In this document: positions 1,565-40,401 of the stretch, piece after piece | Layout of the letters: each line of letters starts with the position of its first letter | Numbering within the stretch: position 1 is the first letter of the stretch | Assembly (NCBI RefSeq): GCF_037893015.1 | Contig: NC_133663.1 | Span: 144,365,771-144,429,770 of the forward strand | Direction of reading: 5' to 3' | Origin: Macrotis lagotis | Lineage: Eukaryota; Chordata; Mammalia; Peramelemorphia; Peramelidae | Length of the DNA stretch: 64,000 bases | Made by a program: the position numbers and the translations under genes | Notes under the pieces: generated by a model | The model's input: only the letters and a program-made list of their open reading frames with translations | What the model was told of the DNA's origin: nothing | The model's database searches: none

Positions 1565-2527
1565 ATACTAAACTATCATTTGTATCAGGGCTTTCCAAAC
1601 TTACTTTTAAAAGTTTTTATTAAAGCAGTAGACAATATATTTTGATTTGTGTTTTTAGTGAGGGCTCTGTGGTAGGTGGCTTCATTTACTAAAGCATTTA
1701 GTAAACCCACGGTTGGTAGCCCACTGTTTTGAAAAGTCCTGATTTATATAATGTTTTAAGATTAGAAATGTTATATCAGTAGCCAAGATCACAGTATGAG
1801 GGCAGGAAATTCCAGAAATTTGTCCCCTCAAACAACTCCAAAAATTGCCAAATAACAATTCTAGTCAAAATTTAAATGGGCAGAACCCACCGAAAGACTG
1901 AATGATAAAATTTCCCAGTCCAAGACAACTTAGAAAGAAAAGTCTGTTTCATCCAGATTGGGGAGGGGGGTGGAAAGAGCTGCAACATGGTCATAGCATA
2001 GCCTGGCTAAAGCAAACCTGCACCATCCTCCCAGGAACAGCCCATGGTGCGCTTGTGTCCTTGGGGACACCTGGGTCCATCACAGAGGATGTGGTTTCCA
2101 GATCTCTTGGCACAATAATTGACAGCATGGTTTGAGGGGAGGTGAGAGAACTCTGCAGCACCAGAGTGAACTTGGAGCCCAGATCAGTGGTGGCCTTGGA
2201 GTCGCCCAGCACTTTCAGAGCTCACAACCCACAGCTGCTAAGGGATTGGGGAGAGACTGCAGTATCTCTCTGCCCTCCCTGAGGGCAGGACTCTGCTGTT
2301 TGCCCACATTCAGATCCAGGTTGCAGTTTGGACTCCCACTGGATGGGGTTCCTCCTCACAACACCAGGACAGAAGGGAGTGCCTGTGGTTATCACTATAT
2401 CAGAACACAAGTAAAAGAGCAGTTAGAGCCTCTCATAAGACCTTGAAGGAATTAAAGTTCCTCTGGGATATCCCCAAAACCCCCCAAAGCCTTGGAAGTG
2501 TGGAAAAATCAGTCATAGGCTGAGGAA

Positions 2528-3770
2528 ATGAGCAACAGAAAAAGAAGAATTTGACTATAGAAAATTGCTTTAGTCTCATGGAGGATCAAAATACACACTC
2601 AGAAGATGACAAAGTCAAAGGTTTTTTATCCAAAGCCTCCAAGAGAAATAGAAAATGGGCTCAGACTATGGAGGAACTCAGGAAAGACTTTGAAAAACAA
2701 GTAAGGGAGGTAGAAGAAAAATTGGAAAGAGAAATGAGAGTGATTCAAGTAAATCATGAAAACTAAATCAGTAGATTAATGAAAGAAATACATAAAATAC
2801 CAAAAAAATAACATGTTAAAAACCAGCTTAGATAGAATGGAAAAAGCAACCCAAAAGGCAAATGATGAAAAGAAAGCCTTAAAAAAGCACAATTGGCCAG
2901 AAGGAAAAGGAGAAAAAAAAAATCAATGATCAAAATTACTCCTTCAAATGTAGAATGGATCTAAAGAAAGCTAATGACTCAAAAATCAATAAACAATAAA
3001 ACAATACAAAAGAATGAAAAATTAGAAGAAAATATGAAATATCTCATTAGAAAAGTAACTGATCTAGAAAACAGATCCAGAGAGATAATTTAAGAATTAT
3101 TGGGCTACCTGAAAGCCACGACCAGGAAAGGAGCCTAGGCTTCATTTGTCAAGAAATAATGGGGGATAGCTAGGTGATGCTGGGGGCAGCTAGGTGGCTC
3201 AGTGGATAAAGTTCCAATGCTGGAATCAGGAGGACCTGAATTCAAACCCAGCATCTGACAATAATTACCTAGCTGTGGGATCTTGGGCAAGCTACTTATC
3301 TACATTGCCTAGACCCCCCCCCTTAAAAAAAGAAATAATGCAGTAAAATTGTCCTGAGATTTTAGAAGCAGAGAGTAAATTAGAAATTGAGGCAATCCAC
3401 TGATCACTTCCTGAAAGGGATCCCAAAATAAAACCTCCCAGGAATATTATAGCTCAAATGCCCAAGACAAATGGAAAACACTCAAAACTGCCAGAAATAA
3501 ACATTTCAACTTCCATGGCTGTAAATTCAGGATTACACAGGATTTGGCACCTTCTTCCTTAAGGGTTCCTAGAGCTTGGAATGTAATATTCTGGAAGGCA
3601 GAAGACCTTGGTTTACAACCGAGAATCAACTACCCATAAAAACTGAACATCCTCTTTCTGGGGGAAAAATGGATTTTTAATGAACAGGGGACTTTCCAAC
3701 TTTCCTGTTGAAATGACCAGAGCTGTACAGAAGTTTAATCTCCATGTACAGGACTCAAGTGAGCAGTGGA
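2528..3770 (+). pseudogene. HAL1 ORF1 (L1 ORF1p-like), dead
   Basis: The ATG at 2528 begins MSNRKRR and meets a stop almost at once. The frame then reopens as a charged coiled-coil segment, with KRNRKWAQTMEELRKDFEKQ readable near 2642. This matches the KKNRNWAQAMTELKKDFENQ segment of the copy on the minus strand near 34140. The C-terminal part is broken by stops and by a SINE at 3162-3329. ORF1p is the RNA-binding trimeric chaperone of L1-type elements. Many frameshifts and stops show that this copy is dead. Confidence 0.7.
3162..3329 (+). mobile_element. tRNA-derived CORE-type SINE inside HAL1 ORF1
   Basis: A SINE with head GGGGGCAGCTAGGTGGC, a middle TTCAAACCC and a C-rich/A-rich end lies between two copies of AAGAAATAATG (3151-3161 and 3330-3340). 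The 5' end is odd: a second partial head, GGGGATAGCTAGGTGATGCT, precedes the normal head. It was mobilised in trans by an L1-type machinery, as SINEs are. Confidence 0.85.
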
Positions 3771-4039
3771 GGGGGTGGATGGAAGGACAAATTATGTGGA
3801 TATTAAAGAAGCTGAATTTTGTGTATTCCTGCATGGGAAGAAGATACTGATAACTCATGAAACTTCTCATTTATAAGAGCAGTTAGAAGGAGCATATATA
3901 GACAAGGCACAGGAGGGAGTTGAATATAAAGATATAATATAGAATAAAGAGGGAGTCAATGGGTGATTAAGGAAAGTACTGAGAGGAAGAAAAAGGTGAG
4001 GTGAAATGAGTTAAGATAGTTCACATAAAAGAGTCAAGA

Positions 4040-4050
4040 AAAAGCTTTTG
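4040..4050 (+). repeat. L1 target-site duplication, left copy
   Basis: AAAAGCTTTTG is repeated exactly at 10873-10883, bracketing the L1. The related HAL1 copy at 21218-23660 has an uninterrupted form of this site near 22770 (AAGAAATAGCTTTTCAAATGG), which acts as an empty-site comparison. Confidence 0.9.
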
Positions 4051-4833
4051 TGGGACTTGGGCCAAGATGGAGAGAAGACAGGCACAGTTCTCAAGTCTCC
4101 TGATCTTTCCCAATCTATGATTTGAAACAACCCTCTTAACTGAAATCCAGTCCACAAAACCCAGAAAGAAAAGCCAGGAGAAAGAACATCTGTATCAGGA
4201 TTTGTTTTCTGCAGTCATGGGTGAATCTGGGCACAGAGGGTGGATCAGCAGTGGATCAGCCTGATTAGCGGTGGGGTTGGAGCCCCAGGAACCTGAGGTC
4301 CCAAGAGCCAGACCTGCTTGATCAGTGGCAGGGATAGTTGAACACGGGGGCTTGGGTCAACTAGGGAGCAGAAGCATTGGTGTTGCAGTTTACCAACAGG
4401 GCTGGGGAGGGGGGAGAGTTCCTGTGAAGGAGAGCTGCAGATATCATCCCTGGGCACCTCTGGTCTGAGGAACTGAGTCCAAGCCTCCATTATGACTGAG
4501 GCCTCTTCCCAGAACAAATACAATTACAGGCTTCTTCTGACCCAGGCACAGGTGTGTGAGCAGAAGAACCAACCCAGCTGACAATAGGGAGAGGGATGAC
4601 CTCACCCCAGGGTAGAGTTCACCACTGATTGAAGACAAAAGTATTTAACAGCTTCAATCACTCCCTCCCGGCTAGGGAGTAGGTCTCAATCAAGGTCACA
4701 GACATTCCAGAGAAAGCAACCAGCACCTCCTACTGGCTGGCTGGAGATGTTGCACTCAATGAGTAAAGCCTTTAGGGATCTCAAGACCAAACTTCTGTGA
4801 ACCAGACCCTCCCCAACTCAAGGTCTTAGCAAA

Positions 4834-5942
4834 ATGAAGAAAGATCAGCTGAAAGGTGGATCCACAGAAAAATTCTTGGAAGGAAAAGACCCTAACCAGA
4901 GAGATCTGGAACCTCTGAAGACAATATGATCTGGTCTCCAGCACACAAAGACTTCCTTGAAGAAATAAGGAAGTAGTTTAAAATCAATTGGAAAATTTGG
5001 GAAAAGAAACTCAAAAGAAGATTAATACCTTACAACAAAAAAACCCAAATCATTGCAAAATACAATTGGACAAATACAAAATAAGAATAATTCTCTCAGA
5101 TCCTCAATTGGGCAAATGCAAAAAGAAAATAATTCTCTCAAAACCTCAATAGGTCTAATGTAAAAAGAAAATAATTCTCTCAAAACCTCAATTGGTCAAA
5201 TGGAAAATTCTTTCCAAAATAGAAGTGACCAATTGGAAAAGGAGTTGCAAAAAGTAAATGAAGAAAACTCCTCTCTAAAAGAAAAAGGATAGAGTCTGTG
5301 GAAACTAATGATTTCATGTAACAGCAAGAGTCTGTTAAACAAAACCAAAAAAATAGAAACAATAGAAGAAAATGTAAAATATCTCTCATAAGCAAAGCCA
5401 CTAACTTTGAGAATAGATCAAGGAGGGGCAACCTGATAATTATTGGACTTCTTGAAAACATTGAAGGGGGGGGAAAGCCTGGACTTAATATTAGATGATC
5501 TAGTGAGGGAAAATTGCTGTGATGTCATGGAACCAGAGGGCAATGTAGTTACTGAAAGAATACATCGATCCCCTCCAGAAAGTGATCCTGAAATGAAAAC
5601 ACCAAGGAATGTTGTGGCCAAATTCCAGAACTATCAGATAAAAGAGAAAATCCTGCAAGCAGTCAGAAAGAAACAATTTAAATACCAAGGAACCACAGTA
5701 AGGATTACTCAGGACCTGGCTGCATCAACATTAAGGGATTGAAGTGCCTGGACGAGATATTCCAAAGAGCCAGGGAGCTTGGAATGCAGCCAAGAATCCA
5801 CTATCCTGCAAAGCTGATCCTTCTTTTTCAGGGGAAAAGATGGACATGTAGCAAAATAGAAGAATTCCAAAATTTCCTGATAAAAAGACCAGAGCCAAAT
5901 AGAAAATTTGAACATCAAACAGGAGGTTCAAGAGATACATGA
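4834..5942 (+). pseudogene. L1 ORF1 (ORF1p RNA chaperone), dead
   Basis: The start ATG at 4834 opens MKKDQLKGG. Frames are then broken by stops near 4926 and later. Residues 75-130 form a coiled coil built from a 42-bp tandem unit (see 5063-5230). A single frame stays open from about 5443 to 5742, covering the RNA-recognition part (PRNVVAKFQNY, VRKKQFKYQG). It then shifts frame into the C-terminal domain (ELGMQPRIHYPAKL, FQGKRWT), which ends at 5942. The same C-terminal motif is found in the three HAL1 copies, which supports the L1 ORF1 assignment. Confidence 0.85.
5063..5230 (+). repeat. 42-bp tandem repeat in L1 ORF1 coiled coil
   Basis: Units begin CAATTGG or CAATAGG at 5063, 5105, 5147 and 5189, each exactly 42 bp apart. 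The first three are complete and the fourth diverges after about 20 bp. Forty-two bases encode 14 residues (pattern IGQMQKENNSLKTS), exactly two coiled-coil heptads. Expansion by this unit therefore keeps both reading frame and heptad register. Confidence 0.85.
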
Positions 5943-21240: not shown

Positions 21241-21833
21241 AATGAGAACAGAATTTCCTAGGAGCTCTCTCAAAAATATTCCCAAAATCTTAAAATTATG
21301 GCTCTAACTAAATTTTCGAGGCAATTCACTAGCGCAAAGCAGGCTGAAAAATTGTGGGAAAACTGTTCCACGGAGGTGGAGGGGGCAGCAACACAGCCAG
21401 GATTAGTACACAGGAGGGAGGGAGCTCCAGTCTTCCAGGCCCAGCCTGCTGGTCATGGGGAGCACCGGCTCCCAGCAGCAAAAGTAGTTTTCTGACCTGG
21501 CAACCGAGGAAACACTTGGGAGATCCGCTGGGAAACGTCTGCCAGAGTGAGTGGGAGCCAGCGTGGCCTTCAGCACAGCCTCAGCCAGTGCCATAGCTGT
21601 AACCCACAGTGCTGCCCAGATCCCAGGAAACTGAAGCAGACTCACAGAGCCAGAAAGCAAAAGAGCTTGAAATGCAACCAAGGATCAACTACCCAGCAAA
21701 ACTGAGCATTCTCGTCCAGGGGAAAAGATGGACTTTCCATGAAACAGGGGAATTTCAAATGTTCCTGTTGAAATGACCAGAGCTGGCCAGAAAGTTTTAT
21801 CTTTAAGTACAGGATTCAGGTGAAGCATAGAGT

Positions 21834-22512
21834 TTAGTGGAATATTCCCTCTTAAGAGTTAATATTCCTAGTGAAGTCCTCTCAGGGCTAAAAAATCATT
21901 AAAACAAAGACAGACTATTACTCTTACACTATTAAAAAAAAAAGAGGTAGAGAGGCCTTGCATTCCCAGCCAGACAACCTCCTGATTCTGTTAGGGAAGG
22001 AAATGGTGAAATACTTCCAGAGAAGATACCTTGCATTCCTAGACACCTATTTGATGATAGACTGAGAGAACAGTAGACTGCCTTCTCTTGTTTGATGATA
22101 ATAAGTACTAAACTAAGAAGATAGTTGTTTCTTAGAACACCTTGCATACTCAGATATTAATTCATTTAGATAGACAGCAAAAGGCCATTAGAAATCTTCT
22201 GATATCCTTACCATCTGGATGGTGAGGTAATATTCTATGAAAACATGTTATTCTTCTCTTTGTAGGTAGATTTTTCGTGTAAAGATTGTAACTGAAAACC
22301 TTAATCAATCAGGTTGGAAGAGAGGGGGCTGGAGGGGGGCCATGCTAGGCCATATGATCTTGCTTGATTGTCACCTCGGGGCAGTTCCTTGATCTTCACT
22401 ACCTTTATGAGACTTGGAGTGTGCCCTTTTCTTGAGAAAAGCCAAGATAAACTTTCTTTTTTTCTCAGAAGAGTCTCTATATTTTTTTTTAGGTGGATTT
22501 TTATCATACACA
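21834..22512 (+). mobile_element. Solo ERV LTR, copy 2
   Basis: It aligns end to end with 865-1564 (AGTGGAATATTCCCTCTTAA, GAGGCCTTGCATTCCCAG, GACTTGGAGTGTGCCC). The start is TTAGTGG, a decayed TG, and the end is CATACACA. GAGT flanks both sides (21830-21833 and 22513-22516), a 4-bp target duplication. The poly(A) signal is degenerate here (GATAAA near 22446, against AATAAA in copy 1). It sits in the HAL1 3' region with no viral body, so it is a solo LTR left by recombination. Confidence 0.85.
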
Positions 22513-23004
22513 GAGTGGACAAGAAGGATAAATTAGGAGGAATTTAATGATGATGAACTGCATGTATTCCTGCACAGGAAGATGATATAGATACTCATAT
22601 GAACTTTCTCAATTATTAGAGCAGTTAGAAGGAGCTTTTATAGTCAAGACACAGGAAAGAGCTGAATTTGAAGGTATGATATATTTTGAAAACGGAGTCA
22701 ATGGGTGAAAATGAAAAGTACTGGGACAAAGGAAAGGAGATGTAGAACAGACTAAGATATTTCATGTAAAATTCAAGAAATAGCTTTTCAAATGGTATGG
22801 AAGTGGGGGAAAGTGAGGGGGAATTTCATTCTCATTGAAAATGGCTCAGAAAGGAAACAACATATATACTTAATAGGGCATAGAAATCTAGAAGAAAAAG
22901 GAGAGAAAGGAGATGGGAGAAATGGGACAGGGGAAGAGAGCAGGGAGGTAGGGGATAGAGGAGAGGATAGACCATGGGAAAGGATAGTCATACATAATAT
23001 ATTT

Positions 23005-23152
23005 TCTTTTTTACTTTTTGCAAGGTGGTGGGATTGGATGGCCTATGTGGGACCATGGGGATGGTTGGGTGCTGGGTCACTGAGGTGGGATGTTGGCTTG
23101 GGGCCTCTTGGCCCAAGGGCTGGTGCTCTGTGTGCTGTGCTACTTGGTTGTT
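23005..23152 (-). mobile_element. GC-rich SINE variant fixed in HAL1 3' region
   Basis: It follows the CORE-SINE order in antisense but with many changes: TTTTTGCAAGG, TGGATGGCC, GGGACCATGGGGATGG, GGTGCTCTGTGTGCTGTGCTACTTGG. The same variant lies at the same place of HAL1 copy c (32540-32690, complement) and is absent from copy a. It therefore probably entered the HAL1 lineage before these copies spread. Confidence 0.65.
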
Positions 23153-23160
23153 TCACAGCA

Positions 23161-23320
23161 TACTTCTTTTTTTATAAGGTTTTTGCAAGGCAAATGGGGT
23201 TAAGTGGCTTGTCCAAGGCCACACAGCTAGGTAATTATTAAGTATCTGAGACTGGATTTGAACCCAGGTACTCCTGACTCCAGGGCTGGTGCTTTATCCA
23301 CTGCACCACCTAGCTGCCCC
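23161..23320 (-). mobile_element. CORE-type SINE with TSD
   Basis: Antisense copy: GGTTTTTGCAAGGCAAATGG, GGATTTGAACCCAGGTACTC and CACCTAGCTGCCCC. TCACAGCA flanks both sides (23153-23160, 23321-23328). It inserted right next to the older GC-rich SINE. Confidence 0.9.
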
Positions 23321-23660
23321 TCACAGCACACTTTAGATGAGGGACAGAGTGAAAGGAGAGAGGAAATATAATAAATGATAGTGGTAAGAAATAGATGGAG
23401 GGAATTGCAATCAGCATCATCAACTGTAGAAGTAACTTCTCTGATGGACTTATGATAAAGCATGCGATCCACCATAAGACAGAGCTGATGGTATCAGAAC
23501 ACAGAATGAAGAACCTTTTTTTTCTCTTTCTTTCACTTTATTTCATTTGAGATGTTTTTTTTGTGGGGGGAGGTGGGATTATGTTTACTCTTACTGCAAG
23601 ACTATTTTAGTAATGTATAAATAAATGAAGAAACTAATTAATTAATTAATTAATTTAATT

Positions 23661-28375: not shown

Positions 28376-28779
28376 TATAGCCCACAATAGCTCTAGTGTG
28401 GGTCTGGACATGAATCTGAGAGTAAGGTCGGGTAGAAAGACATATCCAAACATGGAAGTTTGGGAAGTGAAAATCCACCAACTTTAGTTTTGGAAACTCA
28501 GACTTTTTAATAGCAAAAACTTATCTCAGGAATGGCTGGTTAAAGGAGACCCAGTTTCACAATTCCCTGGGTAAAGTTACAGTATTTGTTGTTAGAAATT
28601 TGCATACTTCTCTATCCAAGAAACCTTCTACAACCACCCCAGGAGCCACAGATTATCCTAGGTCAGGGTGCACTGGTGAACCAATGGATCCATACAATGA
28701 GCAATAATCCATGCATATCTTTGATGAAGAAGATCACCAAGGATATGTGAATATCACTCCCTGGGGCTGGCCCTCTACA
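28376..28779 (-). mobile_element. 3' LTR of the provirus
   Basis: 404 bp, colinear with 39993-40395. On the minus strand it begins TGTAGAGGGCCAGCC and ends GGGCTATA (a TG...TA edge, probably from TG...CA). The region equal to the 5' LTR TATA box reads TATTAAAA. Confidence 0.95.
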
Positions 28780-28780
28780 G

Positions 28781-28793
28781 TTTCCCCCTTCTT
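28781..28793 (-). other. Provirus polypurine tract
   Basis: The minus strand reads AAGAAGGGGGAAA followed by C and the LTR TG. This is the plus-strand primer position, immediately 5' of the 3' LTR. Confidence 0.85.
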
Positions 28794-32336: not shown

Positions 32337-32539
32337 AATAATAATAACAAAAAAGGTGCTTCAGTCTTTGTTCCAACACCAACAACTCTGTCACGGGTGG
32401 ATCACATTCTTTATAAGTCCATCACAAAAGTTGTTTCCATATTTTTCCACCCTTGCCATTGCTGATTGCAACTCCCTCCTTTCTTATTTCTCCATTACCA
32501 TGTACTCTATTTTCTCTCTCCTTTCACTCTGACTCTGCT

Positions 32540-32690
32540 GTAGGGTAGCTGAGTGGCGCAGCAGACAGATCCCTGGTCCCGGGGCCAAGAAGCCCTGAGC
32601 CCCCATACTACCCCTTAGGCCCAGAATCCACCTGGCCCTATGGTCCTGGGCAGGCCTTCCAATCCCAGCCTCTTGCAAGAAGTAAAAATG
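32540..32690 (+). mobile_element. GC-rich SINE variant fixed in HAL1 3' region (unit 3)
   Basis: GGGTAGCTGAGTGGCGCAG and a degenerate body to CTTGCAAG. It lies between the same HAL1 blocks as the variant at 23005-23152 of copy b: on the minus strand ACACATTTTCATTTTTAC before it and CAGAGTGAAAGGAG after it. Confidence 0.65.
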
Positions 32691-33157
32691 AAAATGTGTT
32701 ATATCTGACCACTCTCCCCGCATGGTCCAGCCTCTCCTCCTTTATTCACATCCCCACCCCTTCCCCCTGCTCCCCCCCTCCTTCTTACTCCAGATGTCTA
32801 TACCCCATTGAGTATATTTGTTTTTTCCTCTCCTAGCCATCTCTGATGAGAGCAAAGGTTCCCTCATTCCCCCTTGCCTCCCACCTTCCATATATCATTG
32901 CAATAGCTCATTGTAATAAAAGAAATCTTATTATGTGAAATATCTTGGACTATCCCCCCTCTCTTTTTCTTTCTCCCATTCCATTTCCCTTTTTTCCTAT
33001 TGACTCTATTTTTACACCATATTTTATCTTCGAATTCAGCTTTCTCCTGAGCTTCAACTATAAAAGCTCCCTCTACCTGATCTGTTAACTGAGAAGGTTC
33101 ATATGAATATTATCAGTATCATTTTTCTATACATGCAGTTCATCCTCATTAAGTCCC

Positions 33158-34285
33158 TCATGTTTCCCCCCTCTCCTCCAATCTCCATACTTCACCTGAG
33201 TCCTGTATCTGAAGATCAAACCTTCTGTTCAGCTCTGGCCATTCCAAAAGGAACCTTTGAAATTCCCCTGGTTCATTAAAAGTCCATCTTTTTCCCTGGA
33301 AGAGGACATTCAGCCTTGCTGGGTAGTTCATTCTTGGCTGCCTTCTAAGCTCTTTTGCCTTCCGGTATATTGTATTCCAAGCCCTACGAGCTTCCAATGT
33401 AGCTGCTGCTAAGTCCTGTGTGATCCTGCCTGCAGCTCCACGATATTTGAACTGTGTCCTTCTGGCTGCTTGTAATATTTTCTCTTTGACTTGGGAGTTC
33501 TGGAACTTGGCTATAATATTCCTAGGGGTTGGTTTTTGGGGATCTCTTTTGTGGGGGGGATCAGTAGATTTTCTCCATTTCTATTTTGCCCTCTGCTTCT
33601 AGAATATCAGGGCAATTTTCCTGTAGTAATTCTTTGAAAATGATGTCAAGGCTCTTTTTCTGATCATGACTTTCAGGTATTCCAATAATTTTTAAATTAT
33701 CTTTCCTAAGTCTGTTTTCCATATCAGTTGTTTTTTCAATGGGATATTTCACATTTTCTTCTAATTTTTCATTTTTTTTTGGTTTTGAAGTATTGATTCC
33801 TGATTTCTGGTAAATTCATCAATCTCCCTGAATTCTATTCTTTGTCTGAAGGATTTGTTCTCCTCATAGAGTTTTTCTTATCTCTTTTTCCATCTGGCTA
33901 ATTTTGCTTTTTTTAAAGCATTCTTCTCCTCAATAACTTTTTGAACTGTTTTATCCATTTGGCCTAAGCTGGTTTTTAGCATGCTATTTTCTTCAACTTT
34001 TTTTGGATTTCCTTGACTAAGCTGCTTACTTCATTTTCATGTTTCTCCTGCATCTCTCTCCTTTCTTTTCCCAGTTTTTCTTCCAACTCCCTCATTTGAT
34101 TTTCAAAGTCTTTTTTGAGCTCTGTCATAGCCTGAGCCCAATTTCTGTTTTTCTTGGCATCTTTAGATGCAGGAGCTTGTGCTTCCTCATCTTCAGGCTG
34201 AGTATTTTGATCCTTCTTGGGCTCATTTGCAAAATATTTCTCAATAGTCTTCCTATTATTTCTCTGCTTGCTCATTTTCCCAGCC
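33158..34285 (-). pseudogene. HAL1 ORF1 (copy c), broken
   Basis: The start ATG lies near 34276 (MSKQRNNRKTIEKYF). An acidic linker follows, then a coiled coil (KKNRNWAQAMTELKKDFENQ; MRELEEKLGKERREMQEKH) open to 33976. Stops near 33970-33760 break the frame. An RNA-recognition segment follows (NLKIIGIPESHD at 33752-33561), then the C-terminal domain (ELRRQPRMNYPARL, FQGKRWTF) ending with a stop at 33158. The order matches mammalian L1 ORF1p. It is the best-preserved ORF1 in the window but is not intact. Confidence 0.85.
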
Positions 34286-34379
34286 TGGGCCTGGTTTTGG
34301 GGTGCTTCCTGAGCTTTTGGGACACTCTCACAAAGGGTCTCAGTGTGTGAAGCTCTGTCTTCCCTCCTGGTCTGTGAAT

Positions 34380-37500: not shown

Positions 37501-37643
37501 AAAGTTCCTAAAGTGGGAGTTTGGAGGAGAATTTTCCGGGGAAGGCCCTTTGGCCTTGACCTCCACACCCCTCCTTCCACTTAGAGGCAGGCACGGGTCT
37601 GGAGGTGTCATTGGAGGTAAAAGCCATCACTCTTATTTTTTGT

Positions 37644-37794
37644 TTAGGTTTTTGCAAGGCAAATGGGGTTAAGTGGCTTACCCAAGGCCACACAGCTAGG
37701 TAATTATTAAGTGTCTGAGACACCGGATTTGAACCCAGGTACTCCTGACTCCAGGGCTGGTGCTTTATCCACTGCACCACCTAGCCACCCCCCT
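37644..37794 (-). mobile_element. CORE-type SINE in gag
   Basis: Antisense copy: AGGTTTTTGCAAGGCAAATG, CACCGGATTTGAACCCAGG and CACCTAGCCACCCCCC. Flanks ATCACTCTT (37626) and ACCACTCTT (37796) suggest a target duplication. It interrupts gag between matrix and the proline-rich linker, in the provirus orientation. Confidence 0.9.
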
Positions 37795-37861: not shown

Positions 37862-38121
37862 TTAAGCCAAAAGAACATCTCCAGGTGGAGTCAGACAGAT
37901 TTTTAAAATATTCCACAATGAAAAGACTCCTATACAGAATGTCTTCTGACCTTCCTGTTTAAAATTTTCACTCATCTGTTTCTCCACAGTTTCCCATTTT
38001 TCAATACTTAATACTCCTTCTGGAAACCAGGGACAACATTTTTGTACACATTCAATAAATTCTTCCACTTGTTTTGTTGTTATTAACAAGCCTCTTTCTT
38101 TAACTATCTGCTTTAGCACTG
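37862..38121 (-). pseudogene. Provirus gag matrix, continuation after the GLUL insert
   Basis: An 85-codon open frame (38119-37862) with LKQIVKERGL, then VEEFIECVQKCCPWFPEG and SIEKWETVEKQM. The CPWFPEEG-type motif and spacing are those of betaretrovirus matrix (p10), where the virion myristoylated N-terminal domain binds the membrane. It starts exactly where the GLUL A tail ends. The initiating part of gag is on the other side of the insert (39776-39809). It ends at a stop before the proline-rich region. Confidence 0.8.
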
Positions 38122-39775
38122 TTTTTTTTTATGCTCATTCTTTTTATTTTTTTTCCCCCTGGAAGCTACAAGTCTATGTTTTTGTACAAACTCGATTAGA
38201 TGGAAACAGTGGTTATGTTCCCCAACCCCTTTTCCCCACTAAATATACTATTTTCTCAGTCTTCAAAAAAATCAATGATGGAAAAAAAGATTAAAAACAT
38301 CCCAACCCTACTCGCCCTTCCCCTACAAAAAAAAGGCAAGGAGTTATCTGTGGGCACAAAAAAAATGGTATTTTGTGCCCTGGGTTACATCTAGTAGGGA
38401 AACTTGGAAGAGGGGAGAGGTGAGGTGGAAGAGGCCATGAGAAAAGGGTTACAGGGCAGGGATACAGAGGTATGTGAGTCTAGTCCACTTAGTTTTTATA
38501 CTGAAAGGTTTCTTCCCCTGTCTCATTGAGGAGACAGGTATGGATAAGTGCCTCTGTCACTACATAAGGGTCACAGTTGGCAGAGGGGCAGTGATCTTCA
38601 AAGTAGCCCTTCTTGTCCTGCCCAACCATCCTGGGAATTCGGATGCTGGCACCATGGTTGGCCAAACCATTGGAGAATTTGTTGATGTTGATGTTTCATT
38701 GAAACCTGTCAGGCCACGGGCATTGTCCAGACCCCCTTTGGGGTCATAGGCTCAGATATGATATATGTGCCATTTGCTTAGTCTCTCAATGGCTTCTTCA
38801 ATAAACTTTAGACCATTTTCTTCTCTCATGGCCTTGGTACTGAAGTTAGTATGGCAACCAGCTCCATTCCAGTTTCTGGGAATTGGCTTGGTATCAAATG
38901 TTACAATCATTCCAAAATCTTCACACACTCGATGGAGGATGAAGCAGGCAATCCAGAGATGATCTCCCATTTCAATCCCTTCACAGGGTCCTATCTGGAA
39001 CTCCCACTGAGCTGGCATTACTTCAGCATTTGTCCCCCCAATTTTGACTGCAGCATATAGATAAGCACAGTAATGAGCTTCTGTTATATCTCTTCCATAG
39101 GCTTTGTCAGCTCCCACGCCACAGTAATATGGACCCTGGGGCCCAGGGAACCCATTGGAAAGCCAACCAAAAGGGTGTCCATCTGTTCCCATGAGAGTAT
39201 ACTCTTGTTCCATACCAAACCAGGGTTTCTGGTTAGTCACCATATCCATTATCCCTTTACAGGTATGCCTCAAATTGGTCTCTGCAGGCTTTTGGTTATA
39301 CTTGAAGACTTCACTGAGAACCAGTTTGTTGGGGTCCTTTCGGAAGGGGTCTGGGAACAGAGCAGCGGGAATAAGATACATATCACTGTTGGAACCTTCT
39401 GATTGAAAAGTGCTGGAGCCATCAAAATTCCATTCAGGTAGATCTTCTATGCTCTTCGGTTCACTGTCTAGAGTCCGGGTTTTACAGAGCAGTCCCTCGC
39501 CAGTGCCATCGATCCAAATGTACAATGGCCAGGACTTTGGTCTCTTGAGGCAAGTTTAAGTACATCTGCTTGATATTTTTGTTCAAGTGAGAACTGGCTG
39601 AGGTGGCCACGTTAGAAGCTGTCCTGGGCCCGGAGGTGGGCAGGAGCGTGTGGTTGGAGCAGGACACAGGGCGCGGGGCTGGATGTGCTAGATGGTGGCT
39701 GCGGAGTGGGCACTGGCAGCGGCGGAGGCTCCAGCCTGGGCACAGGCTTCCACTCTAGGTGCTGCCCCTGCGAAT
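38122..39775 (-). mobile_element. GLUL: Processed GLUL cDNA with 3' UTR and A tail, inside gag
   Basis: On the minus strand: a GC-rich 5' UTR (about 39775-39611), an intronless coding region (39610-38489), a 3' UTR (38488-38131), a poly(A) signal AATAAA (complement 38143-38148) and a 9-A tail (38122-38130). Gag sequence abuts both ends. The left junction is followed by gag CAGTGCTAAAG. The right junction falls after the gag-side CATTATTCGCAG, within about 10 bp of 39775. Apart from a shared CAG no target duplication is seen. The copy lies in the sense of the provirus. Confidence 0.85.
38489..39610 (-). pseudogene. GLUL: Glutamine synthetase pseudogene
   Basis: Glutamine synthetase joins ammonia to glutamate using ATP. 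This copy spans 1122 bp, equal to the 373 codons plus stop of the family. No introns are present. Recognisable blocks are the N-terminal [55 protein letters not shown] (glutamate site) and [15 protein letters not shown] (ATP site), with the C-terminal ETFQYKN end. Defects: the start codon is GTG (39608-39610), one extra base near 39525, a TGA at 38752-38754 replacing an Arg codon of the family, and one missing base near 38690. A 257-codon frame (39525-38752) is still open in the middle. Dead as an enzyme gene. Confidence 0.97.
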
Positions 39776-39809
39776 AATGTCCTCTATCCTTGGACTGTCC
39801 CTGTCCCAT
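39776..39809 (-). pseudogene. Provirus gag start codon and first codons
   Basis: ATG at 39809 (minus strand) opens MGQGQSKDRGHYSQ. Gly at position 2 fits an N-myristoylated matrix protein, as in MGVSGSK of MMTV. After about 11-14 codons the sequence passes into the GLUL 5' UTR. The rest of the matrix resumes at 38121. Confidence 0.75.
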
Positions 39810-39992: not shown

Positions 39993-40395
39993 TATAGCCC
40001 ACAATAGCTCTGGTGTGGGTCTGAACAGGAATCTGAGAGTCAGGTCGGTAGAAAAACATATCTGAACATGAAAGGTTGGCAAGTGAAAATCTACCAACTT
40101 TGTTTTTTGGAAACTCAGCCTTTTTATAGCAAAAACTTATCTCAGGAATGGCTGCTTAAAGGAATCCCAGTTTCACAATTTCCTGGGTAAATTTGTAATA
40201 TTTGTTCTTAGAAATTTGCCTACTTCTCTATCCAAGAAACCTTTTACAACCACCCCAGCAGCCACAGATTATCCTAGTTCAGGGTTCACTGCTGAGCCAA
40301 TGGATCCATACAATGAGCAATAATCCATGCATATCTTTGATGAAGAAGATCACCAAGGATATGTGAATATCACTCCCTGAGGCTGGCCCTCTACA
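39993..40395 (-). mobile_element. 5' LTR of the provirus
   Basis: 403 bp, colinear with the 3' LTR. On the minus strand it starts TGTAGAGGGCC and ends GGGCTATA. A TATAAAAA box (complement 40121-40128) lies mid-LTR and would place R near 40095. No clean AATAAA was seen. Confidence 0.95.
40121..40128 (-). promoter_or_regulatory. LTR TATA box
   Basis: The minus strand reads GCTATAAAAAGGC. The 3' LTR equivalent is TATTAAAA. Confidence 0.6.
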
Positions 40396-40401
40396 ATTAC
40401 A
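40396..40401 (+). repeat. Provirus target duplication, right (ATTACA)
   Basis: 5 of 6 match with 28370-28375. Confidence 0.6.

Follow-up and report, generated by a model that had tools for sequence, protein, structure and literature searches.

The GLUL insert

The window analysed here, a stretch of 64,000 nucleotides from the genome of Macrotis lagotis (assembly GCF_037893015.1, contig NC_133663.1), carries on its minus strand a degraded endogenous retrovirus (ERV) of about 12 kb, within whose gag gene lies a complementary copy of the mRNA for glutamine synthetase (GLUL). All features of this provirus and of the insert are on the minus strand and are given in positions of the window. The GLUL insert (39767-38131) has a length of 1637 bases and contains no introns. 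It could be matched exon by exon to a parent gene with introns in the same assembly (locus L009; contig C2, exon matches 77135387-77140813), the spliced frame of which is an uninterrupted protein of 373 residues. All seven exons of this gene are contiguous in the insert, exons 2-7 with an identity of 93.6-98.7% and the CpG-rich first exon with 75%. The match to the parent gene bears out the 5′ untranslated region (UTR), the 3′ UTR, the AATAAA (38148-38143) and the viral sense of the cDNA, all of which had been proposed in the original prediction from the letters of the window.

The AATAAA is followed, beginning 12 bases past it, by a tail of nine adenines (A9, 38130-38122). This tail is not encoded in the parent gene, which instead of the A9 after GAGCAT reads TTGAAACC. 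The 5′ end of the cDNA corresponds to a site of the parent gene approximately 28 bases past a TATA-like box, at which transcription could be expected to begin. Because of this start and of the unencoded A tail after AATAAA, the cDNA seems to be complete from cap to poly(A), and the insert resembles a single mRNA copied in full.

The coding region (39610-38489) is of full length, as had been predicted, but it is not intact. The start codon ATG is changed to GTG, a +1 frameshift lies near codon 29 and a -1 frameshift near codon 307, and codon 286 has turned from CGA into the stop codon TGA. Compared with the parent, 31 of the 38 coding substitutions are protein-changing. The GLUL copy is dead and its coding capacity is gone. 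Moreover, the gag frame runs into a stop codon ahead of the GLUL start, and there is no gag-GLUL fusion frame. The copy has residues in common with GLUL of Trichosurus vulpecula.

The insertion site in gag

The placement of the cDNA between the first codons of gag and the remaining gag was confirmed with refined coordinates, gag being cut after 12-14 codons. Starting with the ATG at 39809, 12 codons and one base of gag (39809-39773) precede the joint; 29 of 29 inspected relatives align up to approximately 39773 and then continue into gag. The five bases CGCAG (39772-39768) that lie between this part and the cDNA are, by comparison with the relatives, probably the 5′ copy of a short target-site duplication. 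Directly after the A tail, as the original prediction had it, gag is resumed at 38121 with CAGTGCTAAAG. The resumed matrix part (38121-37862) was identified by the Pfam domain Gag_p10 (E 9.3e-19), by its resemblance to betaretroviral matrix structures, namely the matrix of Mason-Pfizer monkey virus (M-PMV), and by the relatives.

The relatives were obtained by searching the same genome with the leader of the provirus. This ERV family is large: the search gave 376 first-look candidates, of which 40 were scored, resulting in 41 rows (the window, 39 other copies and one second piece). Among those scored, the best match after the window itself is 88% identical. In all 39 other copies the matching breaks off exactly at the insertion site, and in each of the 29 that were fetched and inspected there, gag is uninterrupted. 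The original prediction had raised the question of whether further ERV copies hold GLUL at the same gag position, and none of these 29 does. Their uninterrupted reading is ATTATT (or ATC), followed by TGAA (26 of 29), TGAG (2 of 29) or TGTG (1 of 29) and then by gag, so that the sequence round the empty site is ...GGACATTATT-TGAA-AGTGCTAAAG... or near it. At the split site, the left flank ends with ...ATTATTCGCAG and the right flank starts after the tail with CAGTGCTAAAG. Compared with the 29 relatives no gag was lost at the site, and differences are limited to a few bases at the joint.

Both flanks of the insert carry a C at a position that is A or G in the 29 relatives. A pattern search of the same genome with C at this base delivered 207 uninterrupted places with at most two mismatches; each of the 100 listed has one mismatch, namely A or G at the position of the C. 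The simplest reading of the C on both sides appears to be that a target duplication of 3-5 bases took along a base peculiar to this provirus and afterwards decayed slightly. The candidate duplication is short; only CAG is identical in it, and when changes are allowed it extends to at most 5 bp (CGCAG vs AACAG). Two other candidates were rejected. A longer, diverged duplication within the first gag codons (ACAGTCCAAGGATAG vs ACAGTGCTAAAGCAGATAG) does not fit the frame of gag, and by comparison with the 29 relatives its two stretches are different, normal parts of gag; as for CTAGAG/CTAAAG, the first of the two sits in the first exon of GLUL. On the strand that would have been nicked, the empty site of the relatives gives CTTTC/AAAT, or CTGTC/AAAT with the C of this provirus. 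The consensus of the LINE-1 endonuclease is TTTT/AA, of which CTTTC/AAAT is a variant, and the polarity would fit a nick set by LINE-1 at this sequence of the opposite strand.

Other GLUL loci in the genome

A GLUL search of the 3.66-Gb assembly resulted in 28 matches, which apart from the window and the gene (6 rows) represent 14 other loci. One of the latter is represented by L007/L008 (G000:C1:550614334-550615653). The counts include neither L006 (one exon of the parent) nor L052-L071, and L049-L051 are the same places as L002-L004. Ten of the 14 other loci were aligned to the spliced mRNA. After the gene, the closest whole-length GLUL sequence to the insert is a copy at 87%. Within the fetched flanks, the LTR, leader or gag of this provirus was found beside none of the 14 loci. 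Since these GLUL-like loci do not adjoin this ERV, GLUL appears to be a frequent source of retroposition in this genome.

Age of the GLUL copy and of the integration

The provirus is bounded by two long terminal repeats (LTRs), the 5′ LTR at 40395-39993 and the 3′ LTR at 28779-28376, both delimited by a BLAST alignment of one with the other and flanked by the 6-bp repeats TGTAAT and TATAAT, respectively. Over 408 columns (39993-40398 vs 28376-28782) the pair is 91.4% identical. If GLUL had been carried at integration, the copy should be at least as diverged as the LTRs. The LTR differences were polarised with the LTRs of 28 relatives (29 loci matched, 28 of them long enough). All 31 differences are private to one LTR, 17 to the 5′ and 14 to the 3′ LTR, with none ambiguous, and thus postdate the integration. 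This amounts to 31 changes at 796 non-CpG sites, or 3.9% per lineage. Between the GLUL copy and the gene, 31 of 1410 non-CpG sites of the coding sequence and 3′ UTR differ. With the help of the 10 aligned GLUL copies, which are more diverged and of which few cover some sites, 26 of these differences were assigned to the copy and 5 to the gene. The copy's own changes (26/1410, 1.8%) are significantly fewer than those of the LTRs (31/796, 3.9%; p = 0.005). The difference is kept with codon positions 1 and 2 alone (13/699, p = 0.02) and in an unpolarised comparison (GLUL-gene 31/1410 vs LTR-LTR 32/405, p = 5e-7). When the private changes of leader and gag (65/1524) are added, 96/2320 stands against 26/1410 (p = 9e-5), with part of the 65 predating the integration. 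Judged by non-CpG sites, a GLUL copy younger than the integration is thus supported but not settled.

The 5′ UTR was excluded from the dating, as 29 of its 146 sites differ (11 of 99 at non-CpG sites) in an uncertain alignment. Five neighbouring differences in the 3′ UTR (alignment positions 1284-1291) could stem from a single small indel; counting them nevertheless, as was done here, raises the apparent age of GLUL. A two-sequence, one-gap alignment of the LTRs with 41 and 40 differences was rejected for one misaligned stretch, and the conservative counts of BLAST (32) and of the many-sequence alignment (31) were used. Dating against a vertebrate GLUL protein consensus was superseded by the parent gene.

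Several observations weaken the dating or weigh against a later insertion of LINE-1 type. With CpG sites included, GLUL has 43 changes at 1477 sites (2.9%, 2 of the 43 unresolved) vs 31/804 in the LTRs (p = 0.27), and codon positions 1 and 2 show no difference (30/747 vs 31/804). Transversions alone give 19/1477 vs 15/804 (p = 0.28), and at non-CpG sites 13/1410 vs 15/796 (p = 0.07). The age gap hence hinges on the exclusion of CpG sites, which is a choice. We regard the non-CpG comparison as fairer, since GLUL brought along many fast-decaying CpG sites and the LTRs are almost without them (8 CpG-like of 804 sites). In addition, both LTRs share a base that is rare in the relatives at 6 of 397 columns, so that the integration came after some of the 65 leader and gag changes; among the internal private changes, this may apply to about a third. 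Local rates vary as well, with 13/218 private changes in the leader and 4/240 in gag right after the insert. Apart from age, LINE-1 duplications are usually longer than the very short, imperfect one proposed here, in which CAG alone is identical.

Further parts of the provirus

Two bases past the 5′ LTR, a stretch resembling a primer-binding site (39990-39973) can be read from the sequence, which we take to be of a Lys-like tRNA type. Downstream of the matrix, domain matches mark remnants of the gag capsid (Gag_p24, 37042-36776) and of the integrase (rve and Integrase_Zn, 30518-29964). A remnant similar to the envelope transmembrane protein (GP41, 29120-28830) matches under the curated cut-off. 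An Rfam scan gave no match. Nested in the same provirus is a LINE-1-like stretch (32349-34298, minus strand) that includes remnants of the domains Transposase_22 and Tnp_22_dsRBD of open reading frame 1 (ORF1) at 33158-33580, and pieces similar to this stretch are present near 2500-5900 and 21650-23600 of the window. Within gag, shortly downstream of the insert, lies a short interspersed element (SINE; 37630-37791, minus strand). Copies like it recur at more than 12 places in the window and are presumably of a marsupial type.

Origin of the insert

Two readings had been offered for this locus, a later retroposition of GLUL mRNA into the provirus and a transduction of GLUL by the ERV lineage. 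The former is favoured by the uninterrupted relatives, by the absence of gag loss and by the younger age at non-CpG sites, which is not significant with CpG sites; the latter found no support. What is observed at the locus is a spliced full-length cDNA with an A tail, inserted without loss of gag into a site that is uninterrupted in the relatives, and bearing inactivating lesions. In our view, the GLUL copy is very probably an ordinary processed pseudogene, produced when GLUL mRNA was retroposed in the LINE-1 manner into an existing provirus. That the LINE-1 machinery made the insertion is inferred, and the LINE-1 ORF1 remnants in the same provirus were counted for this type of retroposition. 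The provirus, perhaps at half of its present age, would by that time have been part of the germline. Target-primed reverse transcription of LINE-1 type would have copied a GLUL mRNA, mature and polyadenylated, into its gag. The nick would have been set on the strand reading CTTTC/AAAT, as in the relatives, or CTGTC/AAAT if the special C was already present. Priming from the poly(A) end at the gag side would then have yielded a full-length cDNA and a target duplication of 3-5 bp. By this course of events the GLUL copy, now a pseudogene, would never have been part of an infectious genome.

Alternatively, GLUL mRNA could have been co-packaged, and template switches at the poly(A) tail and at the capped 5′ end of this mRNA could have linked it to the viral genome, with integration of the recombinant afterwards. 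A marsupial betaretrovirus-like ERV would in this case have taken up the complete mRNA from cap to poly(A), and the young look of the copy would result from chance or from the choice of sites. The viral sense of the cDNA, its position within gag, the A tail at the 3′ join, joins that share only 3-5 bases, and a GLUL age that, once CpG sites are counted, is not significantly lower than the age of the integration all agree with such a capture. However, both switch points would have to coincide in gag without loss, which is not expected of two independent template switches. Several proviruses sharing one host insert are also usual after retroviral capture, though not indispensable, and no second GLUL-bearing copy appeared among the 29 inspected relatives or the 14 other GLUL-like loci. 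We consider capture unlikely because the insertion cost no gag, gag is uninterrupted in the relatives, a single copy was found and, with less weight, the non-CpG sites make the cDNA about half as old as the LTR divergence. Less probable still is that GLUL belonged to the provirus from the start and looks young owing to a recent gene conversion, with the functional gene or a different retrocopy as donor. GLUL copies could in principle convert one another, but the changes are scattered over coding sequence and 3′ UTR, with CpG changes throughout the coding sequence, and this spread speaks against a converted patch; both frameshifts and the stop are still there, and the nearest whole-length GLUL after the gene reaches only 87%. 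An assembly artefact that fused a GLUL retrocopy to a provirus is equally hard to credit. The locus was judged from the assembly, but the window is free of N, gag adjoins the insert directly at either end without any loss, and from there the provirus continues to its two LTRs.

With LINE-1 processed pseudogenes, the preferred origin of the insert, the GLUL copy has in common that it is a spliced full-length mRNA copy with an A tail and lost coding capacity, and that further copies of the same gene exist in the genome. It differs from them by its target, a proviral gag entered in viral sense, and by its unusually short duplication. Acute transforming retroviruses carry host cDNA fused to gag. 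The host cDNA within gag in viral sense is shared with these viruses, whereas no gag was lost, no fusion frame exists, only one copy was found and the insertion probably took place after integration. According to PMC5408686, LINE-1-linked retroposition is dominant in mammals, with LTR-mediated template switching (Tan et al., as described in that paper) as the alternative. Host mRNA sequence inside an LTR element is common to that alternative and to our case, but the mRNA copy at our locus is a complete one that probably postdates the LTRs. A literature search found no publication on a GLUL pseudogene with an endogenous retrovirus, and among the titles listed by further searches none names GLUL.

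Had capture taken place, the gene of a metabolic enzyme would have travelled in a retrovirus. As it is, the locus serves mainly as a worked example: a host cDNA within gag may be a pseudogene that was inserted later, even when it is in viral sense and ends in an A tail. Capture can be tested against later insertion by polarising LTR mutations by means of relatives, provided that CpG sites are handled carefully.
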